Source: Saprospirales bacterium (lineage in GTDB: Bacteria; Bacteroidota; Bacteroidia; Chitinophagales; Saprospiraceae). Taken from it: a stretch of DNA of 41,955 nt. Both the position numbers and the translations under genes were made by a program. Positions 2,844 to 41,858 of the stretch are shown here, piece after piece. The notes under the pieces are model-generated. The model saw only the letters and a program-made list of their open reading frames with translations. It searched no databases and was not told where the DNA came from. Within the stretch, counting starts at the first letter, position 1. The number at the start of each line of letters is the position of its first letter. The DNA lies in contig PAAY01000053.1 of NCBI GenBank assembly GCA_002698985.1, positions 1-41,955 of the forward strand, read 5' to 3'.

Positions 2844-4010
2844 TCAAACAGGGGTTGCTACTTTGGAACCTACAGCTGCAAATGCTGACTCCAGGTCCTG
2901 GATGAGATCCCGGACGTCCTCCAGCCCTACTGACAGCCGGATGAGTCCATCTTCAACACCGGATTGGCGGCGCTTCTCTGCAGGGATGGACTTGTGGGTC
3001 ATGCTGGCCGGATGGCACAGCAGGCTTTTCACGCCGCCCAGGCTTTCCGCCAGTTTGAAATAGGAAGTTGAACTTGCAAACCGGGTAGCGGCGGTGGCAG
3101 AGTTGTCTTTCAAGACGAAGGATACCACGCCGCCAAATCCGGAACATTGTCGCCTGGCAACCTGGTGGCCGGGATGAGATGGCAGGCCGGGATAATGTAC
3201 TTTCTCAACAGCCGGATGGGCCTCCAGCCATTCCGCAATGCGGCGGGCATTTTCGCAATGTTGTTTTACCCGAAGGTGAAGCGTTTCAATTCCGCGCAGC
3301 ACCAGCCAGGAATCAAAAGGTGACAATACAGCACCGGAAGCGTTTTGGATGAATTTGATGCGTTCCCCTAATTCTTGATTCCGGGCTACAACCAGACCTG
3401 CGATCAGGTCACTGTGACCCCCCAGGTACTTGGTTGCGCTGTGCACGACGATGTCGGCCCCTAGTGCCAACGGTCGCTGCAACACGGGGGAAGCAAAGGT
3501 GTTGTCAATGCAAAGCAGGCAATCGTAAGCCCTTGCAATGATGGCCACCTCTTCGATATCTGTAATTTTCAGGGTTGGATTGGTGGGCGTCTCAATCCAG
3601 ATGAGCGCAGTGTTGGGACTCAAGGCCTTTTCGATGTTGGCAGGGTCCGTGGTGTCAACATACTTCACCCTGATCCCGAACTTTTCATAAACGTGGGTGA
3701 AGAGCCTGAAAGCCCCGCCGTAAATGTCATCTACGGCGATGATCTCGTCACCTGCTTTCAGCAATTTCAGTACTGCATCGATGGCAGCCAGGCCACTGCT
3801 GAAGGCAATGCCTTGCTGGCCACCTTCCAGTTTGGCGATGACGTCCTCCAGCACTTTGCGGGTGGGATTGTTGGTGCGGGCATAATCGAATCCTTTGTGA
3901 ATGCCCGGGGCTTCCTGCACGAAGGTGGAAGTCTGGTAGATCGGAACGGCGATTGCGCCGGTTTGTGGATCCACAGGCAGGCTGTGGATGGTTTCAGTGA
4001 TTTGACTCAT
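2844..4010 (-). CDS. metB: Cystathionine gamma-synthase (trans-sulfuration PLP enzyme)
   Basis: Cys/Met metabolism PLP-dependent enzyme of 388 aa. The PLP lysine is K194 in [20 protein letters not shown] (43-51) and the [11 protein letters not shown] block bind PLP phosphate, and D169 in CIDNTFASP contacts the pyridine nitrogen. The fold alone cannot separate gamma-synthase from gamma-lyase or O-acetylhomoserine sulfhydrylase. The SAM-I riboswitch in the leader and the downstream hom gene argue for the biosynthetic direction, condensing activated homoserine with cysteine or sulfide. A long leader (about 325 nt) separates promoter and ATG. The symbol is a functional guess within this family. 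Confidence 0.88.
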
Positions 4011-4160: not shown

Positions 4161-4211
4161 CAACTGTACACCTGCGCGCATGGGTACAATGAAAAAAGCA
4201 CACACAGACGA

Positions 4212-4320
4212 CTTATCTTCCTCCGGAATTCCGGAGATGGATTTGGCACCTTATCCCGATAAATCGGGACAGGTTGTCAAGGCTTCACAGGGCCATTTCC
4301 CTCTGCCTTTCTTGATAAGC
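4212..4320 (-). promoter_or_regulatory. SAM-I (S-box) riboswitch aptamer
   Basis: Read on the minus strand, the consensus S-box elements appear in order. P1 is CUUAUC (4319-4314) with GAUAAG (4217-4212). Next come GAGGGA (4303-4298), the UGUGAAGCC segment closing P2 (AAGGC/GCCUU), ACAACC, P3 CCCGAU/AUCGGG, the conserved AAGGUGCCAAAUCC (4252-4239), and P4 CUCCGG-AAUU-CCGGAG. S-box aptamers bind S-adenosylmethionine and switch genes off when it is plentiful. It controls the metB-hom operon through the terminator at 4124-4160. Confidence 0.95.
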
Positions 4321-4343
4321 AATGTGGCTTCAAAGAACTGGCG

Positions 4344-13744: not shown

Positions 13745-14503
13745 TCAGGGTAAACTTTTGATGATGGAAAGGAAGTCCTCTGCTTTCAATGAGGCTCCTC
13801 CGATCAATCCACCGTCGATGTCAGCCTGGCTGAACAATTCTTTGGCATTTGAGGGTTTGCAACTCCCGCCGTAGAGTATGGTCGTTCTTTCAGCTGTTTC
13901 GATGTCATACTTACCGGAAATCAACTTCCGGATTCTGGCGTGCATTTCCTGGGCTTGATCAGGGCTGGCTGTCTTGCCGGTACCAATGGCCCATATCGGC
14001 TCATAGGCAATCACTACCCTACCAAAAGCTTCCTTGTCAAGGTGGAACAGCGCAGCTTTAATCTGGTCTTCAACATAGTTGAAATGCTTGCCGGCTTCCC
14101 GGACTTCCAGTGGTTCACCACAGCAAAAGATCGGCCTGAGGCCTTCTTCGAGAATAGCATCCACTTTTTTCTTCACAACTTCATCAGTCTCCCCGAACAG
14201 CGTGCGGCGTTCTGAGTGACCTGTTATCACAAAGCCCACTCCGCAGGATTTGAGCATGGGAACTGAAACTTCACCGGTATAGGCACCAGACTTTTCAAAA
14301 TGGCAATTCTGGGCACCAATGTAAAAATTGGAGATACCTTTTGAGACGGTAGCCAGATGATTCAGATGAATGAAAGGCGGGCAAATGATGACCAGATTTT
14401 CCGATGAACCAAGTCCGTTGATGATTGCTGTTGCCAGCTCACGCCCCTCATCAAATGTCTTGTTCATCTTCCAGTTTCCCGCAACGATTTGTAAACGCTT
14501 CAT
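13745..14503 (-). CDS. tpiA: Triosephosphate isomerase
   Basis: 252-aa TIM barrel interconverting dihydroxyacetone phosphate and glyceraldehyde 3-phosphate in the cytoplasm. The catalytic residues are all present: K12 in GNWKMN, H96 in TGHSERR, and E168 in AYEPIWAIGTGKTA. The phosphate-binding loop YGGSCKPSNA and GLIGGASLKA follow. Length is standard. It is a single gene with its own promoter about 50 bp upstream. Confidence 0.98.
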   Translation of the reverse strand: MKRLQIVAGNWKMNKTFDEGRELATAIINGLGSSENLVIICPPFIHLNHLATVSKGISNFYIGAQNCHFEKSGAYTGEVSVPMLKSCGVGFVITGHSERRTLFGETDEVVKKKVDAILEEGLRPIFCCGEPLEVREAGKHFNYVEDQIKAALFHLDKEAFGRVVIAYEPIWAIGTGKTASPDQAQEMHARIRKLISGKYDIETAERTTILYGGSCKPSNAKELFSQADIDGGLIGGASLKAEDFLSIIKSLP

Positions 14504-14963
14504 ACAAATTTTGTGAAGAGAATGTCTCCCAAAGTTTTATTTTTCAGAGGTGCGCAAAAGTAATCAGAATAACTCTGTTTCACAAAAGCCCGCAAAGGTG
14601 AAGCTCTCTACCCTAAGCCCGGTGCTAAAATTTCTTTCAATTTACAAAATGCTATAATTCAGCACCTTATTTGTGCCATTCGGCACTTTTTGCGCTCTAA
14701 AGGTTGCGTTGAATTCAAATTTGACTTTACTTTGCCCCCGTTCTTTGTCATTTAGTTGGCAAAAATGGTGATTGACAAGATTTAATTTTAGAGACACACA
14801 GGTTGAGGTTGATTTGTTTCAAGGAATTTCTAACTTGGCGCTGTCTTTGCTCTTCATTCATCAATTCAACTTTCTTTCTTAACTCTTCAAAACTGTTCGG
14901 TCTATAGCGAGATACTTCTACTAAATCAGTCTGGAAAACATTTCTCAACTAAATGATTTAGTC
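14504..14963. other. AT-rich intergenic region between tpiA and the sigma factor gene
   Basis: 460 bp between divergent genes. It holds the tpiA promoter (14555-14586). A weak plus-strand promoter-like stretch, TTTGACTTTACTTTGCC (about 14719-14735), is 7/8 to TAnnTTTG but 220 nt before the sigma factor ATG. A 66-codon minus-strand open frame (14748-14948) encodes a lysine/glutamine-rich peptide with no recognised family and no supporting signals. Nothing else is evident. Confidence 0.5.
14555..14586 (-). promoter_or_regulatory. Promoter of tpiA
   Basis: On the minus strand TTTG (14586-14583), a 20-nt spacer and TACTTTTG (14562-14555) match the Bacteroidota -33/-7 consensus. Transcription would start near 14548, giving a leader of about 45 nt. 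Confidence 0.75.
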
Positions 14964-15545
14964 ATGCAAGTATCCATGCTCAATGACCAACAGCTCATCT
15001 CATCTTACCTCGAAGGCAACGAAAAGGCTTTTCAGGAACTGCTCAACCGCTACGAGCAAAAAATCTACACTTCCATTTATCTTTTCGTGAAAGACGATGC
15101 CCTGGCGCAGGACATCTTCCAGGAGGTATTCATCAAGATCATCAACACCTTGCGGAGTGGCAAATACAACCACGAAGGCAAATTCGGTCAGTGGGCCATG
15201 CGAATTGCATACAACCTCTGCGTTGACTACTTCAGAAGAGGAAAGCGCCGCCCGACCATCTATCCCAATGAGAACTTTGACATATTCGACGTCATCAGCT
15301 CAAAAGAACCGGACGCTGAACAGCTCATTATGAAAAGCCAAACCCACGAGCGCATAAGAAAGCTCGTAGATATGCTTCCGCCTGAGCAACGCGAAGTGGT
15401 CATTTTGAGACACTACGCCGATATGAGCTTCAAAGAAATCGCTGCGCTCACCCGGGTGAGCATCAATACTGCACTTGGCAGAATGCGTTACGCATTGATC
15501 AACATCCGTAAAATGATCGAGGCCAAGCAGGTACAATTGCAGTAA
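14964..15545 (+). CDS. ECF (group 4) RNA polymerase sigma factor
   Basis: 193 aa. The sigma-2 domain (about 25-95) has the typical LLNRYEQKIYTSIYLFVKD helix, core-binding ALAQDIFQEVFIKI and the -10 recognition block FGQWAMRIAYNLCVDYFRR. The sigma-4 helix-turn-helix (about 130-185) has LPPEQREVVILRHYADMSFK, then EIAALTRVSINTALGRMRYA. It has no extra C-terminal domain. An ATG four codons in (14976) is an equally plausible start. It is followed after 84 bp by a small PspC-like membrane protein gene and not by a recognisable anti-sigma factor. Confidence 0.93.
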   Translation: MQVSMLNDQQLISSYLEGNEKAFQELLNRYEQKIYTSIYLFVKDDALAQDIFQEVFIKIINTLRSGKYNHEGKFGQWAMRIAYNLCVDYFRRGKRRPTIYPNENFDIFDVISSKEPDAEQLIMKSQTHERIRKLVDMLPPEQREVVILRHYADMSFKEIAALTRVSINTALGRMRYALINIRKMIEAKQVQLQ

Positions 15546-28250: not shown

Positions 28251-28886
28251 ATGGGACAAGTTACCGACAAAATCAGGGCACACATCGGAGAGGGTGAGTT
28301 GGAAAAGGCCATCGACACCCTGGTACAGTTCCTGCGTCCCATAGGAGGTGAATTATACGACCAGGCAGTTCACCAACGAGGACTGTTCAAATCTTACATG
28401 AAAGACCGGATGCTGGGCCTGGCCAACAACGCCGAGGAGAAGAACAAAATCTCAATGGCCATTCTGTCGCTTGCAAGCCAGGTGGATCAACATGACCTGG
28501 AAAACCCGAACCGGGCCAGCCAGCCCTCTACGCCGGCTCAAAAAGATTTTTCGAACCAGGCCTCCTACAACCAACCGCAAACTCCTCCGGTACAACAACA
28601 GCAGCCTCAGGCCCAACAGCAGCCCAGGTACAAAGCCCAGTGCTTCTTCACGGGCGACATCATGCAGTATTACATCACGGAAAACGATCAGATTCTGGCC
28701 GTCAATCCCCTGACCAACCAGTCGCTCATCGTCGGAATGAAGATGCCGTCCAACAATTTCAATTTTGCCTGGACATATTACGTCTCTGCGACCAACATTT
28801 ATTACATGGTGGATCATGCCGGCCTCATCTGGGGGCAAAACTTCGGCATGCCTGCTCAGGTGGGATATGTAAAGTATTTCAACTGA
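28251..28886 (+). CDS. Small protein with effector-associated-like helical domain and unknown C-terminal domain
   Basis: 211 aa, no signal peptide. Residues 1-80 are all-helical: KIRAHIGEGELEKAIDTLVQ, then LYDQAVHQRGLFKSYMKD, then EEKNKISMAILSLASQVD. This pattern (short helix with a GE/GK turn, a long helix carrying LY..., and a closing NKI..ALL helix) resembles the effector-associated domains of Bacteroidota conflict and signalling proteins, which act as adaptors. A Pro/Gln-rich linker (83-126) leads to an 85-aa beta-rich, aromatic-rich domain (127-211; CFFTGDIMQYYITENDQILA, FAWTYYVSATNIYYM) that I do not recognise. No caspase, CHAT, NTPase or TIR gene is nearby. It overlaps the convergent gmhA stop by 8 bp. 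Confidence 0.75.
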   Translation: MGQVTDKIRAHIGEGELEKAIDTLVQFLRPIGGELYDQAVHQRGLFKSYMKDRMLGLANNAEEKNKISMAILSLASQVDQHDLENPNRASQPSTPAQKDFSNQASYNQPQTPPVQQQQPQAQQQPRYKAQCFFTGDIMQYYITENDQILAVNPLTNQSLIVGMKMPSNNFNFAWTYYVSATNIYYMVDHAGLIWGQNFGMPAQVGYVKYFN

Positions 28887-29454
28887 AAAGTTCCTCCTCT
28901 ATCAACTGACACATGATGTGTCCAAGCAGTATGTGGCATTCCTGGATTCGGGGTGTGTTTTCCGAAGGGCATTTAAGCAGGTAATCGCAGCAGTCCGGCA
29001 GTTCGCCGGCCGATTGACCGCTCATCCCTATCACCCGTAATCCAAGCTCTCTGGCTTTTGCTGCAGCCCTCAGGATATTGGGTGATTTACCAGAGGTGGA
29101 AAGAACGATGAGTACATCACCGGCGCGGCCTTGTGCTTCCACCCCTCTCGCAAACACCTCCTCGTAGCCGTAATCATTGGCAACGGCTGTCACAAATGAG
29201 CTGTTGCCATGCAGCACCTCGGCAAACAGCGGTTTCCGCTCTTTGTAAAACCTGCCGGACAACTCGGCGGCCAGGTGCTGGGCATCAGCCGCACTTCCTC
29301 CGTTGCCGCAAAACAGCACTTTGCCGCCATTCCGGAAAGTGGCCACCAATAGCTCAACGCAAGATTGGAGCACATCGAGTAAGTCAGCGGAGTTCAGCAA
29401 CTCCTGCTTGACAGACAGGCTTTCCGAGATGATATTTTTTGCTCTCTCTTTCAT
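28879..29454 (-). CDS. gmhA: Phosphoheptose isomerase (SIS domain)
   Basis: 191 aa from the ATG at 29454, chosen because it overlaps the hisS stop by one base (TGATG), the signature of coupled translation; the open frame continues further upstream only inside hisS. The SIS fold shows GKVLFCGNGGSAADAQHLAAE, the NSSFVTAVANDYGYEEVFAR block typical of GmhA, LSTSGKSPNI and C-terminal ENTPRIQECHILLGHIMC with the catalytic His. It converts sedoheptulose 7-phosphate to heptose 7-phosphate, the substrate of the RfaE1 kinase encoded at 4.4-5.4 kb. Confidence 0.92.
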   Translation of the reverse strand: MKERAKNIISESLSVKQELLNSADLLDVLQSCVELLVATFRNGGKVLFCGNGGSAADAQHLAAELSGRFYKERKPLFAEVLHGNSSFVTAVANDYGYEEVFARGVEAQGRAGDVLIVLSTSGKSPNILRAAAKARELGLRVIGMSGQSAGELPDCCDYLLKCPSENTPRIQECHILLGHIMCQLIEEELFS

Positions 29455-31019
29455 CAAAGAATTTCCTTCAAGTGGGCCACCAGGTCCGTTCGACTTACTT
29501 CCTTCTGTACCAACTTGTTCCACTCCTGCTTATCAATAATTTGCGAAGAAAGCTCCTTACCCAATCGCAGGTTCTTGACGGTCACCACACCTTTTGCCGC
29601 TTCATCTCCGCCCAACAAGATCACGGCCGGGCAGTTCTTTTTGTCGGCATACGACATCTGTTTCTTTATTTTCCGGAAGCCCTTGAAAAAGCCACTGTAA
29701 ACCTCGGCCTCGATACCCGCCTTCCGCAACTCACTCGCAATCTGATAATAGGTTGTCTGAAGCTCATCGTCAAAATAGGCAATCAATACAGGGCCGGTGG
29801 CTTGGGCAAGCTCGGGCATGGACATCCTCAGCACTTCCGCCAATCTGTCAACACCGATGGAGGCGCCGGTGGCGGGCACTTTCATTCCGAGCAGGCGATT
29901 CACGAGGTCATCGTAGCGGCCACCGCCGCAAATGGAACCAACCTTGCGCTTTTTGCCCTTCTCGTCTTTATAGGTAAGCAAAGACTCCGCTTCGAAAACG
30001 GGCCCGGTGTAGTAAGCCATGCCCCGCATCAAGGTAGGGTCAAAAACGATCCTGGTTTCATCATATCCCAGGCTTTCCCAGATCTCATTCATCTTACGGA
30101 GCTCAGCCAAGCCTTCAACGGCAACCGGATGATCGCCAACAGCACTTTCCAGCTTTGCCAGCGCATCTCGCCGGGAATTAACATCACCGGTTGACTTGAG
30201 GAACTCAACAATCCGGCTGACAGTCTCTTCGGCAAGGCCCATGCCTGGAACCTCTGCACCACTGGAATCCGTGCGGCCGGGGCCGAGCTCCAGCACCACA
30301 CTCTCCCAGCCTACCTTGTCCAGCTTGTCGATGATTCTCAGAATCCCCTGCTCTGTTTCTTCATCTTCGATACCGATACCTGCCAGAAAGCCTTTGAGCA
30401 CCTTGCGGTTGTTCACTTTCACCAGGTAAGTTTCCGGTTTCAGGCCAATGGCTTCTAGGGCATCAGAGAGGATCATGCAGGCTTCGGCGTCCGTGGCCAC
30501 ATCGTCAGATCCGACCGTATCGAAATCAAGTTGCCAGAATTCACGGTACCTGCCCGGCATCAGCTTCACTTCGTAACGGAACACCGGTCCGTACTGAAAA
30601 CGCCTGAACAAAGGGCTGCGCCCTTCCTGCACCTGCTTCCGTTTGAAATCAAGCCAAAGGCTTTCGGCGTAAACACGGGCCAGTGGCGCCGTCAGGTCAT
30701 AGCGCAGCGCCAGCATGTGGTTTTCCATGATGACCCTGCCTTCTGCATCACGCATCTCGTTGCCGTCTTCCAGTAGTACTGGTTCCTCTTCCGGGTTGCG
30801 GAAGGCATACACTCCCTGCTCCACCGTGTCGGCATCGGGCATGTATTTGCCCAATACTTCTGCATATTCCAGCACCGGCGTATCCCAATGCTCAAATCCA
30901 TAAGATTTGTAAACCTTGCTGGCCGTTTCCACGATGTGCTGCCGCAGGGCATTGAGGTTGGCATCGATGTCTCTGAATCCTTTGATCTTTCTCGGAATAA
31001 TTCCTCTTTCCTTGGTCAT
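29454..31019 (-). CDS. hisS: Histidyl-tRNA synthetase
   Basis: Class II synthetase of 521 aa, longer than typical bacterial HisRS. Motif 1 region (45-60), LRYDLTAPLAR (105-115), motif 2 RRFQYGPVFRYE (139-150) and its loop PGRYREFWQLDFDTVG (155-170), the HisA motif GMAYYTGPVFEAE (333-345), GGGRYDDL and motif 3 ATGASIGVDRL (383-393) are present, with an anticodon-binding domain after about 415. The motif 2 loop (DFDTVG in place of the usual QLGCEVFG) and the GPVFEAE/GSI-GGGRYD region look like the atypical alphaproteobacterial HisRS. It is translationally coupled to gmhA, and the tRNA-His gene lies 82 bp upstream. Confidence 0.96.
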   Translation of the reverse strand: MTKERGIIPRKIKGFRDIDANLNALRQHIVETASKVYKSYGFEHWDTPVLEYAEVLGKYMPDADTVEQGVYAFRNPEEEPVLLEDGNEMRDAEGRVIMENHMLALRYDLTAPLARVYAESLWLDFKRKQVQEGRSPLFRRFQYGPVFRYEVKLMPGRYREFWQLDFDTVGSDDVATDAEACMILSDALEAIGLKPETYLVKVNNRKVLKGFLAGIGIEDEETEQGILRIIDKLDKVGWESVVLELGPGRTDSSGAEVPGMGLAEETVSRIVEFLKSTGDVNSRRDALAKLESAVGDHPVAVEGLAELRKMNEIWESLGYDETRIVFDPTLMRGMAYYTGPVFEAESLLTYKDEKGKKRKVGSICGGGRYDDLVNRLLGMKVPATGASIGVDRLAEVLRMSMPELAQATGPVLIAYFDDELQTTYYQIASELRKAGIEAEVYSGFFKGFRKIKKQMSYADKKNCPAVILLGGDEAAKGVVTVKNLRLGKELSSQIIDKQEWNKLVQKEVSRTDLVAHLKEIL

Positions 31020-31066
31020 TTCAATAAAGTTTCAACAGGTGAAGATCATGCAGGGCGTAAAATAAA

Positions 31067-31100
31067 AAAAGCATTATTCAAGCGACTGAATAATGCTTTT
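31067..31100 (-). terminator. Terminator between tRNA-His and hisS
   Basis: Perfect 14-bp stem AAAAGCATTATTCA/TGAATAATGCTTTT with a 6-nt loop, followed on the minus strand by seven T. It starts right after the tRNA 3' end. It should end most tRNA transcripts; hisS lies 48 nt beyond it. Confidence 0.9.
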
Positions 31101-31101
31101 G

Positions 31102-31175
31102 TCCCGTTGACCAGATTCGAACCGGTGACCTCCTGATCCACAGTCAGGCGCTCTAACCAACTGAGCTACAACGGG
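31102..31175 (-). tRNA. tRNA-His (anticodon GTG)
   Basis: 74-nt cloverleaf. The acceptor is CCCGTTG/CAACGGG and the D-arm GCTC/GAGC with AGTTGGTTA loop. The anticodon arm is CCTGA-CTGTGGA-TCAGG (anticodon GTG), the variable region is 5 nt, and the T-arm is ACCGG-TTCGAAT-CTGGT. CCA is not encoded. The discriminator base is A73 and the genomic base at -1 is T; the usual bacterial tRNA-His has C73 and an encoded G-1. It has its own promoter and terminator and lies upstream of hisS on the same strand. Confidence 0.95.
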
Positions 31176-31225
31176 ATTTCAATGGTGATGGAAGTTTTTT
31201 TCCATAGCTGCTTTTTAAAGCGGGG

Positions 31226-31256
31226 CAAAAGTAGAAATACTTGGCATTTGTTCAAA
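31226..31256 (-). promoter_or_regulatory. Promoter of tRNA-His
   Basis: On the minus strand TTTG (31256-31253), a 19-nt spacer and TACTTTTG (31233-31226) match the Bacteroidota promoter. The start would be near 31219, leaving a 44-nt 5' leader for RNase P to remove. Confidence 0.75.
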
Positions 31257-39374: not shown

Positions 39375-41858
39375 ATGAAACACTATTTTTCCAAATTCCT
39401 TCCAGTCAATTCCGGCACAACGTTGCTCACATTATGCCTGCTGCTGGCAATTGGAACCGGCTGCAACACCACCAGGTTTCTCGACAAAGAGCGTGGTGAA
39501 ATGTTTCTGGTCGCCAACGAAATAGTTTTCGAAAAGGCGGATGGCAAAGTAAAGAACAAATCAAACCTCGAATACGAACTGCTCCAAATTGCCCTGCAAA
39601 AGCCCAATAAAAAGTTCTTCGGTGTTCCGCGCCAATATTTTTATTACACGGCCACTGATACGCTCGACAAGACCCCATTTGGTCTCAGCGGTGAAAGGGT
39701 GAAAAAACGCCTCCTCGCTGAAGAACCGGCCATTCTGGACACCGCTCTGGTGCAGCAATCGGTTGACATCATGCGGGCCCACCTTCAAAACAAAGGCTAC
39801 TTCTTCGCAAAAGTCTGGAGTGAGATTTCGGTGAACAGGAAGAAGACCAAAGCCACCGTCAAATACCATGTGCAGCCCGATGGCAGATTTACCATTGACT
39901 CCGTGTGGTATGTCAGCAAAGACACCGCCATTAAAGAATTACTGGATTCCGTAAAACACTTGTCTTTTCTACAGCCCGGAAGCCCCATCGACAAAAACCT
40001 GTACCAACAGGAGGTTTCCCGCATCACCACCTTTCTGAGAGACAACGGCTATGCTTATTTCTATCCGCAATACATTTCCAACCTTCAGGGCCGCGACAGC
40101 AGCAATACCTTGCTGACTGCTGACATCGAACTGGAGATATTGCTGCCTCCCGGCAAAGAAAAACACCAGGTTTACCACATCGGGGAAATTTACATCGACC
40201 CCGATTTTGACCCTTACACGGGTAACGCCTACAAACAGGACACCGTCATCAACGGCATCCACTTCCTTTTGGGAAAAAATGAGCGGTTCAAGGTGAAACC
40301 CAAAACCATCCTCAATTCCCTGTTTTTCGAACCCGGCTCTTTGTACCGCCAGAGCGAAATTGACAACTCCGTGCGCCAGCTGAGTGGTCTGGGGGTTTTC
40401 AGGCCGCCATCCTTCAGGTTTGAAGAAGACAGCATCGAAACCGGCAAACTCAACTTCACCATACTCCTCACACCCAACAAAAAATGGGAAATCGGTGCTG
40501 ATTTCGACATCAGCACGACGGAACGGAAAAACCTGGGTAGCTCTGACCTGCTGGGGCTTTCTTTCAGCCCTTCGCTGCGCAACAGGAATTTTCTCCGGGG
40601 GGCCGAGCTCTTTGCCTTCAACACCGACCTCGGTATCGAACTGGCTTTCCCCAGCGGCTTCAGGTCCCTGATCAACACCGTTGATTTCAGGCTGCAAGCC
40701 GACCTTTACCTGCCCCGTTTCACCAACTATTTTGGCATCTGGAAAGGCCTCTGGAAAAGTGGAATCCTTTCGGAACATGCCTACCAGGAGATGCGCCAAA
40801 AAGCGACCAGCCGATTCTCCAGCAGTTACAACCTGCTCATTTTGCTGGACAATTACCGGCTCCAATTTGCCAACATCACTTACGGATTCGACTTTCAGAA
40901 ATCCCTCAACAACAGGTACCTCATCAACCACATTGGCTTCGACCTGCTGGTACCTGAAGTTACCCCCAACTCCAGGTTCGACACCCTGTTGCAGGGACAG
41001 CCCCTGCTCCGTAACAGTTTCAGCCGCCAGTTCATTTCCGGGATTTTGTTTCGTGACCTCACCTGGATCCACACCTCTTCCACCAGTTCCAATGCCAATT
41101 ACTGGTATTTCCGTGGCACCGTGGACCTGTCAGGTCTGGAAGCAATGGCCGGCAATTCGCTCGTCAAACTGGTAGCCAATACCAACAATGACCTTCAGTT
41201 TTTCGGAATAGACTTTTCCCATTACCTGAAACTGGAAACGGACCTCCGCCACAATTGGGTTTTCAGCCCGAACCGCCAACTGGTGGCCCGTGCGAATGTC
41301 GGCTTCGCCACCCCATACTATCAATCCTCCACCGTACCCTACGTAAAACAGTTTTACGTAGGTGGCCCATACAGTCTGCGGGGCTGGTATGCCAGGTCCT
41401 TGGGCCCGGGGCTGTACAAAGACCCGCTGACCGATGACCGGACCCAGAGGAACCTGTTTTACCAGTCAGGGGATATCAAGATCGAGTTCAACCTGGAGTA
41501 CCGCTTTCTGCTGATGCGCCCGGCCAACCTGTTCAACCTGTACGGTGCTTTGTTCATAGATGCAGGCAATGTGTGGACCAGGAAGGAAGACGAGGGCAGA
41601 CCGGGATCACAATTTGCATTTACCAGACGGTTTCAGGATGGCGCCATCGTTCAGGACAATTTCCTTCGGGAAATGGCCGTAGGAAGCGGCTTCGGCACAA
41701 GGTGGGACTTCACCTACTTCATTCTGAGACTTGACCTCGGGGTTCCCTTGCGCAACAACTACCCGGATTCCAGCCGTTCAAACACTTATTGGAATGAGTT
41801 CTCAAAACTCGGCTTCAAAGATGTCATCTTCAATCTCGGCCTCGGGTATCCGTTTTAA
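39375..41858 (+). CDS. tamL: TamL-like outer-membrane assembly lipoprotein (Omp85/BamA family)
   Basis: 827 aa. A lipoprotein signal with Cys30 (AIGTGC) is followed by the TamL-type start NTTRFLDKERGEMFLVANEI. POTRA-like domains run to about 400 (YFFAKVWSEISVNRKKTKAT, GYAYFYPQYI, LSGLGVFRPPSFRF). A C-terminal beta-barrel includes the lid-loop motif GGPYSLRGWYARSLGPG (from residue 663) and terminal strands ending in aromatic F. It belongs to the outer-membrane protein insertion or transport machinery. Unlike BamA it is lipidated, as reported for Bacteroidota TamL. The TamB partner would be expected next, but the window ends 97 bp later. Confidence 0.92.
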   Translation: MKHYFSKFLPVNSGTTLLTLCLLLAIGTGCNTTRFLDKERGEMFLVANEIVFEKADGKVKNKSNLEYELLQIALQKPNKKFFGVPRQYFYYTATDTLDKTPFGLSGERVKKRLLAEEPAILDTALVQQSVDIMRAHLQNKGYFFAKVWSEISVNRKKTKATVKYHVQPDGRFTIDSVWYVSKDTAIKELLDSVKHLSFLQPGSPIDKNLYQQEVSRITTFLRDNGYAYFYPQYISNLQGRDSSNTLLTADIELEILLPPGKEKHQVYHIGEIYIDPDFDPYTGNAYKQDTVINGIHFLLGKNERFKVKPKTILNSLFFEPGSLYRQSEIDNSVRQLSGLGVFRPPSFRFEEDSIETGKLNFTILLTPNKKWEIGADFDISTTERKNLGSSDLLGLSFSPSLRNRNFLRGAELFAFNTDLGIELAFPSGFRSLINTVDFRLQADLYLPRFTNYFGIWKGLWKSGILSEHAYQEMRQKATSRFSSSYNLLILLDNYRLQFANITYGFDFQKSLNNRYLINHIGFDLLVPEVTPNSRFDTLLQGQPLLRNSFSRQFISGILFRDLTWIHTSSTSSNANYWYFRGTVDLSGLEAMAGNSLVKLVANTNNDLQFFGIDFSHYLKLETDLRHNWVFSPNRQLVARANVGFATPYYQSSTVPYVKQFYVGGPYSLRGWYARSLGPGLYKDPLTDDRTQRNLFYQSGDIKIEFNLEYRFLLMRPANLFNLYGALFIDAGNVWTRKEDEGRPGSQFAFTRRFQDGAIVQDNFLREMAVGSGFGTRWDFTYFILRLDLGVPLRNNYPDSSRSNTYWNEFSKLGFKDVIFNLGLGYPF

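Follow-up and report, generated by a model that had tools for sequence, protein, structure and literature searches.

A divergent tRNA-His and histidyl-tRNA synthetase gene pair as a probable replacement of the native histidine identity set in Saprospiraceae

The stretch of DNA analyzed here, called the window, is the 41,955-nucleotide (nt) contig PAAY01000053.1 of Saprospirales bacterium (assembly GCA_002698985.1; family Saprospiraceae, phylum Bacteroidota). It carries a tRNA-His gene next to hisS, the gene for histidyl-tRNA synthetase (HisRS). Nearly all bacteria mark tRNA-His with an encoded G at position −1 (G-1) and a C at the discriminator position (C73). The tRNA-His of the window has neither, and the enzyme encoded beside it is of a divergent type. 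Handles beginning with G, L, C and f are our own labels.

The tRNA-His and HisRS of the window

31102–31175, minus strand: tRNA-His (anticodon GTG) with T at −1, C1-G72, A73 and A49-U65; the full CCA is not encoded
29454–31019, minus strand: hisS, encoding an A73-type HisRS of 521 amino acids, assigned by open reading frame (ORF), profile and tree
30537–30578, minus strand: codons 148–161 of hisS, the motif-2 loop RYEVKLMPGRYREF, placed by alignment, with Met154 at the site of E. coli Gln118

ARAGORN and Rfam agree on the sole tRNA-His of the window (31101/31102–31175). Its base at −1 is T, the complement of the a at 31176; the acceptor stem is CCCGTTG/CAACGGG, and A73 (31102) is followed by C-A. 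The hisS gene follows 82 nt downstream on the same strand. A sequence-only reading of this DNA had pointed to A73 and T at −1 in a tRNA-His gene beside hisS on one strand, and the sequence bears this out. A73 and the lack of a templated G-1 are the tRNA features of the atypical alphaproteobacterial identity system, and both are present.

The genome (4.83 Mb in 102 contigs, 95.5% complete, 0.7% contamination) was searched for other copies. An initial scan gave 229 tRNA candidates, of which 150 were scored; among the 38 tRNA matches the window copy is the only tRNA-His, and the C73 pattern has no match in this genome. An ordinary tRNA-His with G-1 and C73, which the sequence-only reading had named as evidence against its claim, was thus looked for and not found, though at 95.5% completeness the missing part could still hold a further copy. 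The same reading had raised Thg1-like proteins. None was found in this genome by a search that, over 14 control genomes, matched M. acetivorans alone; the eukaryote-type system, in which Thg1 adds G-1 to an A73 tRNA, accordingly lacks its enzyme in this genome. T is also the commonest base at −1 genome-wide, preceding 23 of 38 other tRNA predictions (14 of these with A73), so that cleavage of the tRNA-His precursor at +1 would be expected. Among the tRNAs read, the combination of C1-G72 with A73 recurs only in three tRNA-Pro predictions.

The hisS product scores 333 bits against the NCBIfam hisS profile (TIGR00442; curated cut-off, 287 bits) and is the single HisRS match of the genome. It contains DFDTVG, YYTGPVFEAE and PATGASIGVDRL, on which the sequence-only reading had based its likeness to the atypical enzymes. 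The motifs are there, but alignment puts the motif-2 loop proper at RYEVKLMPGRYREF, not the alphaproteobacterial RNEKPGPGRFRQF. In the E. coli enzyme, according to PMC10100707, Gln118 of this loop reads C73 and Arg123 reads G-1. The Gln118 site holds Gln in all 19 aligned native enzymes of the family and class, Gly (KPG) in the aligned Alphaproteobacteria and Planctomycetota, and Asp (KPDPG) in the enzymes of two further families, f19 and f26. In the HisRS clade of the window the loop reads KLxPG or KIEPG and is one residue longer; the window enzyme has Met154 in KLMPG and not the Gly of KPGPG. The Arg123 equivalent is retained in all 37 A73-type rows aligned. As a separate observation, this site is Gln, Asn or His in 8 of 11 aligned native family enzymes (L067, L068, L069, L071, L076, L108, L111, L119), even though G-1 is retained in the native tRNA-His read. 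An AlphaFold model of the HisRS built with 12 sequences was set aside as a source of contacts, since its mean predicted local distance difference test (pLDDT) score is 69.6 and falls below 50 in residues 145–160, the motif-2 loop.

Joint change of tRNA-His and HisRS

Of 199 family genomes, 10 match the A73 tRNA-His pattern (5 of 112 genera). The C73 pattern occurs in 160, none of them among the ten, and 29 genomes show neither. With the window HisRS as query, 186 of the 199 genomes give a match. The ten A73 genomes match at 57–100% identity (E 1.9e-174 or better), and the best match in the other 176 has E 2.8e-59, with at most 39% identity among the matches listed. The ten genomes with the A73 tRNA are therefore exactly the ten with the A73-type HisRS. 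Similarly, 9 of 395 genomes in a phylum sample have the A73 pattern, and all nine fall among the ten genomes that match the HisRS at E 1e-60 or better (G000, G156, G184, G583, three of f19 and three of f26). Fisher's test of HisRS type against tRNA type, which ignores kinship, gives 5e-16 for the family (at least 147 native pairs) and 1.7e-17 for the phylum. An A73 tRNA this rare, accompanied each time by the same HisRS type, is not a chance pattern. In an earlier sample of 296 phylum genomes, typing covers the 250 that matched an A-or-C73 pattern, leaving out 46 without a match; among the matches listed, all are C73 except G000, G156 and G184. The sequence-only reading had allowed that ordinary Bacteroidota HisRS might pair with A73 tRNAs throughout the phylum; at 9 of 395 genomes, with an enzyme outside the native clade, they do not.

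The difference between the two tRNA types extends beyond the acceptor end. All 29 native tRNA-His of the class that were read have G-1, G1-C72, C73 and G49.U65. The tRNA-His of 30 genomes with an A73-type HisRS were also read, leaving out three Bacteroidales metagenome-assembled genomes (MAGs; G491–493), G587 and the alphaproteobacterial G501 and G504. A73 is present in 29 of the 30 and G49.U65 in none; base −1 is T in 23, C in 4, G in 2 and A in 1, and pair 1:72 is G.U in 20 and C-G in 10. Such a difference in the tRNA body points to replacement of the entire tRNA gene. U72 is reportedly an identity element in Caulobacter. It is present in ten other Bacteroidota relatives read, and the window has C1-G72 instead. 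Position 72 is also mentioned in PMC3875453.

In all 30 genomes with both tRNA and loop read, the residue at the Gln118 site tracks pair 1:72. Asp or Gly goes with G1.U72 (20 genomes), and Met, Leu, Thr, Ser, Ala or Glu goes with C1-G72 (10 genomes, the window included). On the HisRS tree C1-G72 appears in one nine-row clade and, separately, in L138, which amounts to one or two changes, not ten.

Within the family the two genes also stay together. In all ten A73 family genomes the tRNA precedes hisS on the same strand with a gap of about 80–200 nt; in G316 an N-terminal piece of hisS (47 residues matched) lies on the contig of the tRNA and the remainder begins another contig. The same order is found at L137, L138 and L144. 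The native genes, compared by coordinates, lie far apart or on different contigs in seven of seven genomes. A LepA tree of 29 family genomes (9 A73 and 20 C73, the latter picked by completeness; G445 had no LepA match above the cut-off) requires five changes between the two states, at least four of them on well-supported (starred) branches.

That synthetase and tRNA changed together, as the sequence-only reading proposed, is thus strongly supported: they co-occur in 10 of 10 family and 9 of 9 phylum genomes, none of the ten matches the C73 pattern, the tRNA body is distinct, family members have the two genes side by side, and the type is patchy on the LepA tree. The window very probably carries a histidine identity cassette, in which an A73 tRNA-His without encoded G-1 and a matching divergent HisRS have replaced the native pair.

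Origin of the pair and alternative explanations

HisRS trees were built with the motif-2 loop removed, from 71 rows and then from 75 rows that include the f19 and f26 enzymes. The rows hold 14 of many alphaproteobacterial loci and 11 chosen native family enzymes; L260 (partial) was left out of the first tree, and also L258, L259 and L262 out of the second because of long branches. In both trees the sampled A73-type rows form one clade, which in the 75-row tree holds 44 rows (support 100/99) with one change of state. The window HisRS lies inside it, with enzymes of Bacteroidota, Alphaproteobacteria and Planctomycetota, and the native family HisRS lie outside; the grouping with the A73 clade expected by the sequence-only reading is thus recovered, and A73 tracks the enzyme type. 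The f19/f26 enzymes (L264–L269) are the first branch inside this clade (97/93). The 18 Bacteroidota rows around the window form a clade of their own (100/100), as do the 14 sampled alphaproteobacterial rows (100/99). Both belong to a 38-row group (100/98) together with four Planctomycetota and two unclassified MAGs; the grouping of these last two sets with the Alphaproteobacteria is weaker (95/83 with 71 rows, 82/91 with 75).

Wider relatives were taken as the best 80 loci from 84,980 species genomes. Closest among the matches listed are a Bacteroidota MAG (73% identity), a Chitinophagales MAG (61%) and three Bacteroidales MAGs (57–58%); further off, at 40–46%, are Alphaproteobacteria, Planctomycetota and the two unclassified MAGs. 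The four Planctomycetota MAGs (L142, L152, L153, L186; tRNA loci L228–L231) have an A73, G1.U72 tRNA-His and an alphaproteobacterial-like loop. An alphaproteobacterial-like hisS, 42% identical to that of the window, also lies at 14008–15441 of the 21.9-kb plasmid record NZ_CP015293.1 of Cereibacter sphaeroides. Four A73-type hisS genes lie on viral contigs; they are 37–42% identical and have loops of the alphaproteobacterial kind (KPGPG in L217, KSGPG in L218–L220). Human HisRS (HUMAN_4g84), on a long branch, groups with native enzymes of the class (98/93) outside the A73 clade, a placement at odds with the eukaryotic source for the alphaproteobacterial enzyme given in PMC3937112.

These data are explained by an old A73-type HisRS/tRNA lineage, represented also in Alphaproteobacteria, Planctomycetota and other Bacteroidota, from which a pair would have displaced, in scattered genera of the family, the native HisRS and its G-1:C73 tRNA-His. 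Most likely the two neighboring genes moved as a unit by lateral transfer. Cleavage of the precursor by RNase P probably falls at +1, so that no −1 base remains. The enzyme is predicted to read the anticodon, A73 and pair 1:72 in place of G-1:C73, and the motif-2 loop, where another residue stands in for the Gln that reads C73, may make this contact, as the covariation with pair 1:72 suggests. In the branch of the window, a second shift from G1.U72 to C1-G72 would have accompanied a change of residue at the Gln118 site.

The sequence-only reading called the enzyme alphaproteobacterial-like, and part of this stands: it belongs to the same large clade as the atypical enzymes, and alphaproteobacterial HisRS are about 37–46% identical to it, compared with 31–39% for native enzymes of the class; G-1 and C73 are missing from the tRNA-His of the window and of these Alphaproteobacteria alike. 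A source in Alphaproteobacteria is nevertheless not supported. The window's clade stands apart from the 14 alphaproteobacterial rows and is not nested among them, the Planctomycetota group with Alphaproteobacteria, and the loop motif and pair 1:72 of the window differ from theirs. Transfer from Alphaproteobacteria, already contradicted by the tree, is therefore very improbable, and the likeness is one of kind, not of descent. In favor of mutation of the native tRNA and HisRS in place to A73, the eukaryotic tRNA-His also has A73 together with a different HisRS loop (PMC10100707), which indicates that A73 is able to arise more than once. In-place mutation is contradicted by the non-native clade of the HisRS and by the lack of the G49.U65 seen in the 29 native tRNAs, and has almost no probability left. 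Scarcely any more credible is contamination of a metagenome bin by this contig. The window may derive from a MAG, like many of the named relatives, yet it holds the only HisRS match and the only tRNA-His found in a genome with a contamination figure of 0.7%, and the same type, along with some of the neighboring genes, is present in the two other genomes of the genus.

An ancestor of the family with both pairs, followed by loss of the A73 pair in most genera, is an unlikely but more serious alternative. The enzymes of the family are near neighbors within the A73-type clade, the window has SIS and PDZ neighbors in common with G445 and L137, and in G382 another gene of the window is found close to hisS. 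However, none of the 199 family genomes matched both tRNA patterns, and the HisRS query matches just once in nine of the ten A73 genomes, the exception being G316, where one of two matches is probably the N-terminal piece on its other contig. Flanking genes, compared for 22 window proteins over limited flanks, are common within the genus and with L137 and mostly different in other genera, and the HisRS relatives of 57–61% identity sit in other families and orders.

Several observations weigh against a replacement by joint transfer. No donor or mobile element was seen. The patchy distribution of A73 could be explained by old presence and losses. On the LepA tree A73 shows more clustering than shuffled labels do (5 changes versus 7.8 on average, with 10 of 500 shuffles reaching as few), as same-genus pairs would lead one to expect. 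Exceptions may hide among the 29 of 199 family genomes with neither pattern. The genes are not always adjacent: they are about 2.8 kb apart in G184 and G583 and on two contigs in G156; of the f19/f26 genomes, G251 (opposite strands), G055 and G014 have them about 3–8 kb apart on one contig, and G039 and G259 on two contigs. In the flanking sequence retrieved for the loci of Planctomycetota and Alphaproteobacteria, no tRNA-His was found beside hisS. The correspondence of tRNA and enzyme also has irregular members. G587 has an A73-type HisRS and no tRNA-His found even with a loosened pattern, and the alphaproteobacterial G503 (a Phenylobacterium MAG, L233) combines G73 and U72 with an A73-type HisRS. 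The C73 genome G349 also lacks G49.U65, so this mark of the tRNA body is not absolute.

A putative His-codon leader, flanking genes and significance

31067–31100, minus strand: terminator-like hairpin (15 pairs followed by a U run) between tRNA-His and hisS
31179–31205, minus strand: short ORF, MEKNFHHH*, with a run of three His codons; its end lies 3 nt upstream of the tRNA
31226–31233, minus strand: TACTTTTG, a candidate promoter element found by eye in the leader; similar TTTG elements occur in most relatives' leaders

An equivalent hairpin 3′ of the tRNA is readable in 12 printed cassettes (in L138 by eye only) and in G316. The element TACTTTTG fits TAnnTTTG, the −7 promoter consensus of Bacteroidota. 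Each of the nine cassettes in the C1-G72 HisRS clade has a short ATG-initiated ORF with one to three His codons (two have a single His), which ends 2–3 nt before the tRNA or at its U8-A9-G10. L138, also C1-G72, has no His codons in its leader. Two or more His codons are absent from 29 native leaders, 21 other A73-type leaders and 37 other tRNA leaders of the genome. In dinucleotide shuffles the His-codon ORF has p 0.0003 in the window and 0.0003–0.06 across the nine cassettes, and 2.9e-9 combined for five lineages, counting one row per lineage (the stronger row in G459/G371); the test was picked after the pattern had been noticed.

As a non-coding explanation, a small hairpin around the ATG in several leaders could give rise to CAT codons even if nothing is translated. 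Two points speak against this: the His codons of all nine cassettes are in frame, at differing spacings, and the window and G354 differ by a synonymous CAC/CAT change. The predicted ORF, with its consecutive His codons, has the mark of a His leader-peptide attenuator. A simple attenuator with an antiterminator is not favored by minimum-energy folding: the terminator hairpin persists in both of the states tried for each of the nine cassettes, and no antiterminator appears when the 5′ strand of the tRNA is removed. The leader ORF and the hairpin may act in expression of the pair. One possible and more far-reaching view, which we hold tentatively, is that leader ORF, A73 tRNA, terminator and HisRS form a self-contained orthogonal cassette that repeatedly and fully replaced the native system in the family, with a second step to C1-G72/A73, and that the leader peptide lets tRNA charging control tRNA maturation, read-through into hisS, or both. 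His leader peptides precede hisS and hisZ in Bacilli, according to PMC2965389, where a short His-codon ORF likewise lies ahead of a terminator and hisS-family genes. In the Bacteroidota window, unlike these, the tRNA-His gene sits between leader ORF and hairpin and folding gives no antiterminator; the open-licence literature gave no precedent for such a leader with a tRNA gene in it.

Beside the hisS region, an effector-associated domain protein (EAD11, PF19964) is encoded at 28251–28886 on the plus strand and is kept in G354. Elsewhere in the window, an S-adenosylmethionine (SAM) riboswitch (RF00162, 81.6 bits) lies at 4210–4321 on the minus strand, upstream of a minus-strand ORF at 2844–4010. 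Contig C26 of the same genome carries three tRNA-Cys genes in tandem (40937–41183), and five distinct tRNA-Cys predictions were made overall.

A tRNA-His/HisRS pair without G-1 and with A73 has been described in Alphaproteobacteria (Rhizobiales, Rhodobacterales and Caulobacterales; PMC3937112 and PMC3875453). The pair of the window resembles it in A73, the missing encoded G-1, the lost Gln118-site residue and the shared superclade. It differs in its separate clade, in KLxPG with an extra residue instead of KPGPG, in C1-G72 instead of G1.U72, in the tRNA adjoining hisS, and in a patchy replacement inside one family. Bacteria of the candidate phyla radiation (CPR) with archaeal-type TyrRS and TrpRS also combine a foreign synthetase with a tRNA identity that is likewise foreign and matches it (PMC5370408); the window case concerns another amino acid, source and set of identity elements. 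No report of A73 or of G-1 loss in Bacteroidota or Planctomycetota was found among open-licence papers, which do not include Ardell and Andersson 2006, Wang 2007 and Yuan 2011.

The source of the window pair is an old A73-type HisRS lineage and not the Alphaproteobacteria. The shift in histidine identity extends to a larger HisRS clade with members in Bacteroidota and Planctomycetota, and it takes the place of the standard set in scattered genera among close relatives. The covariation of the Gln118-site residue with pair 1:72 offers a directly testable link between a residue and a base pair. The HisRS/tRNA pairs may be mutually orthogonal and could be employed in engineering of the genetic code. 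For the family itself, the scattered replacements are natural replicates of how an essential tRNA identity can change.

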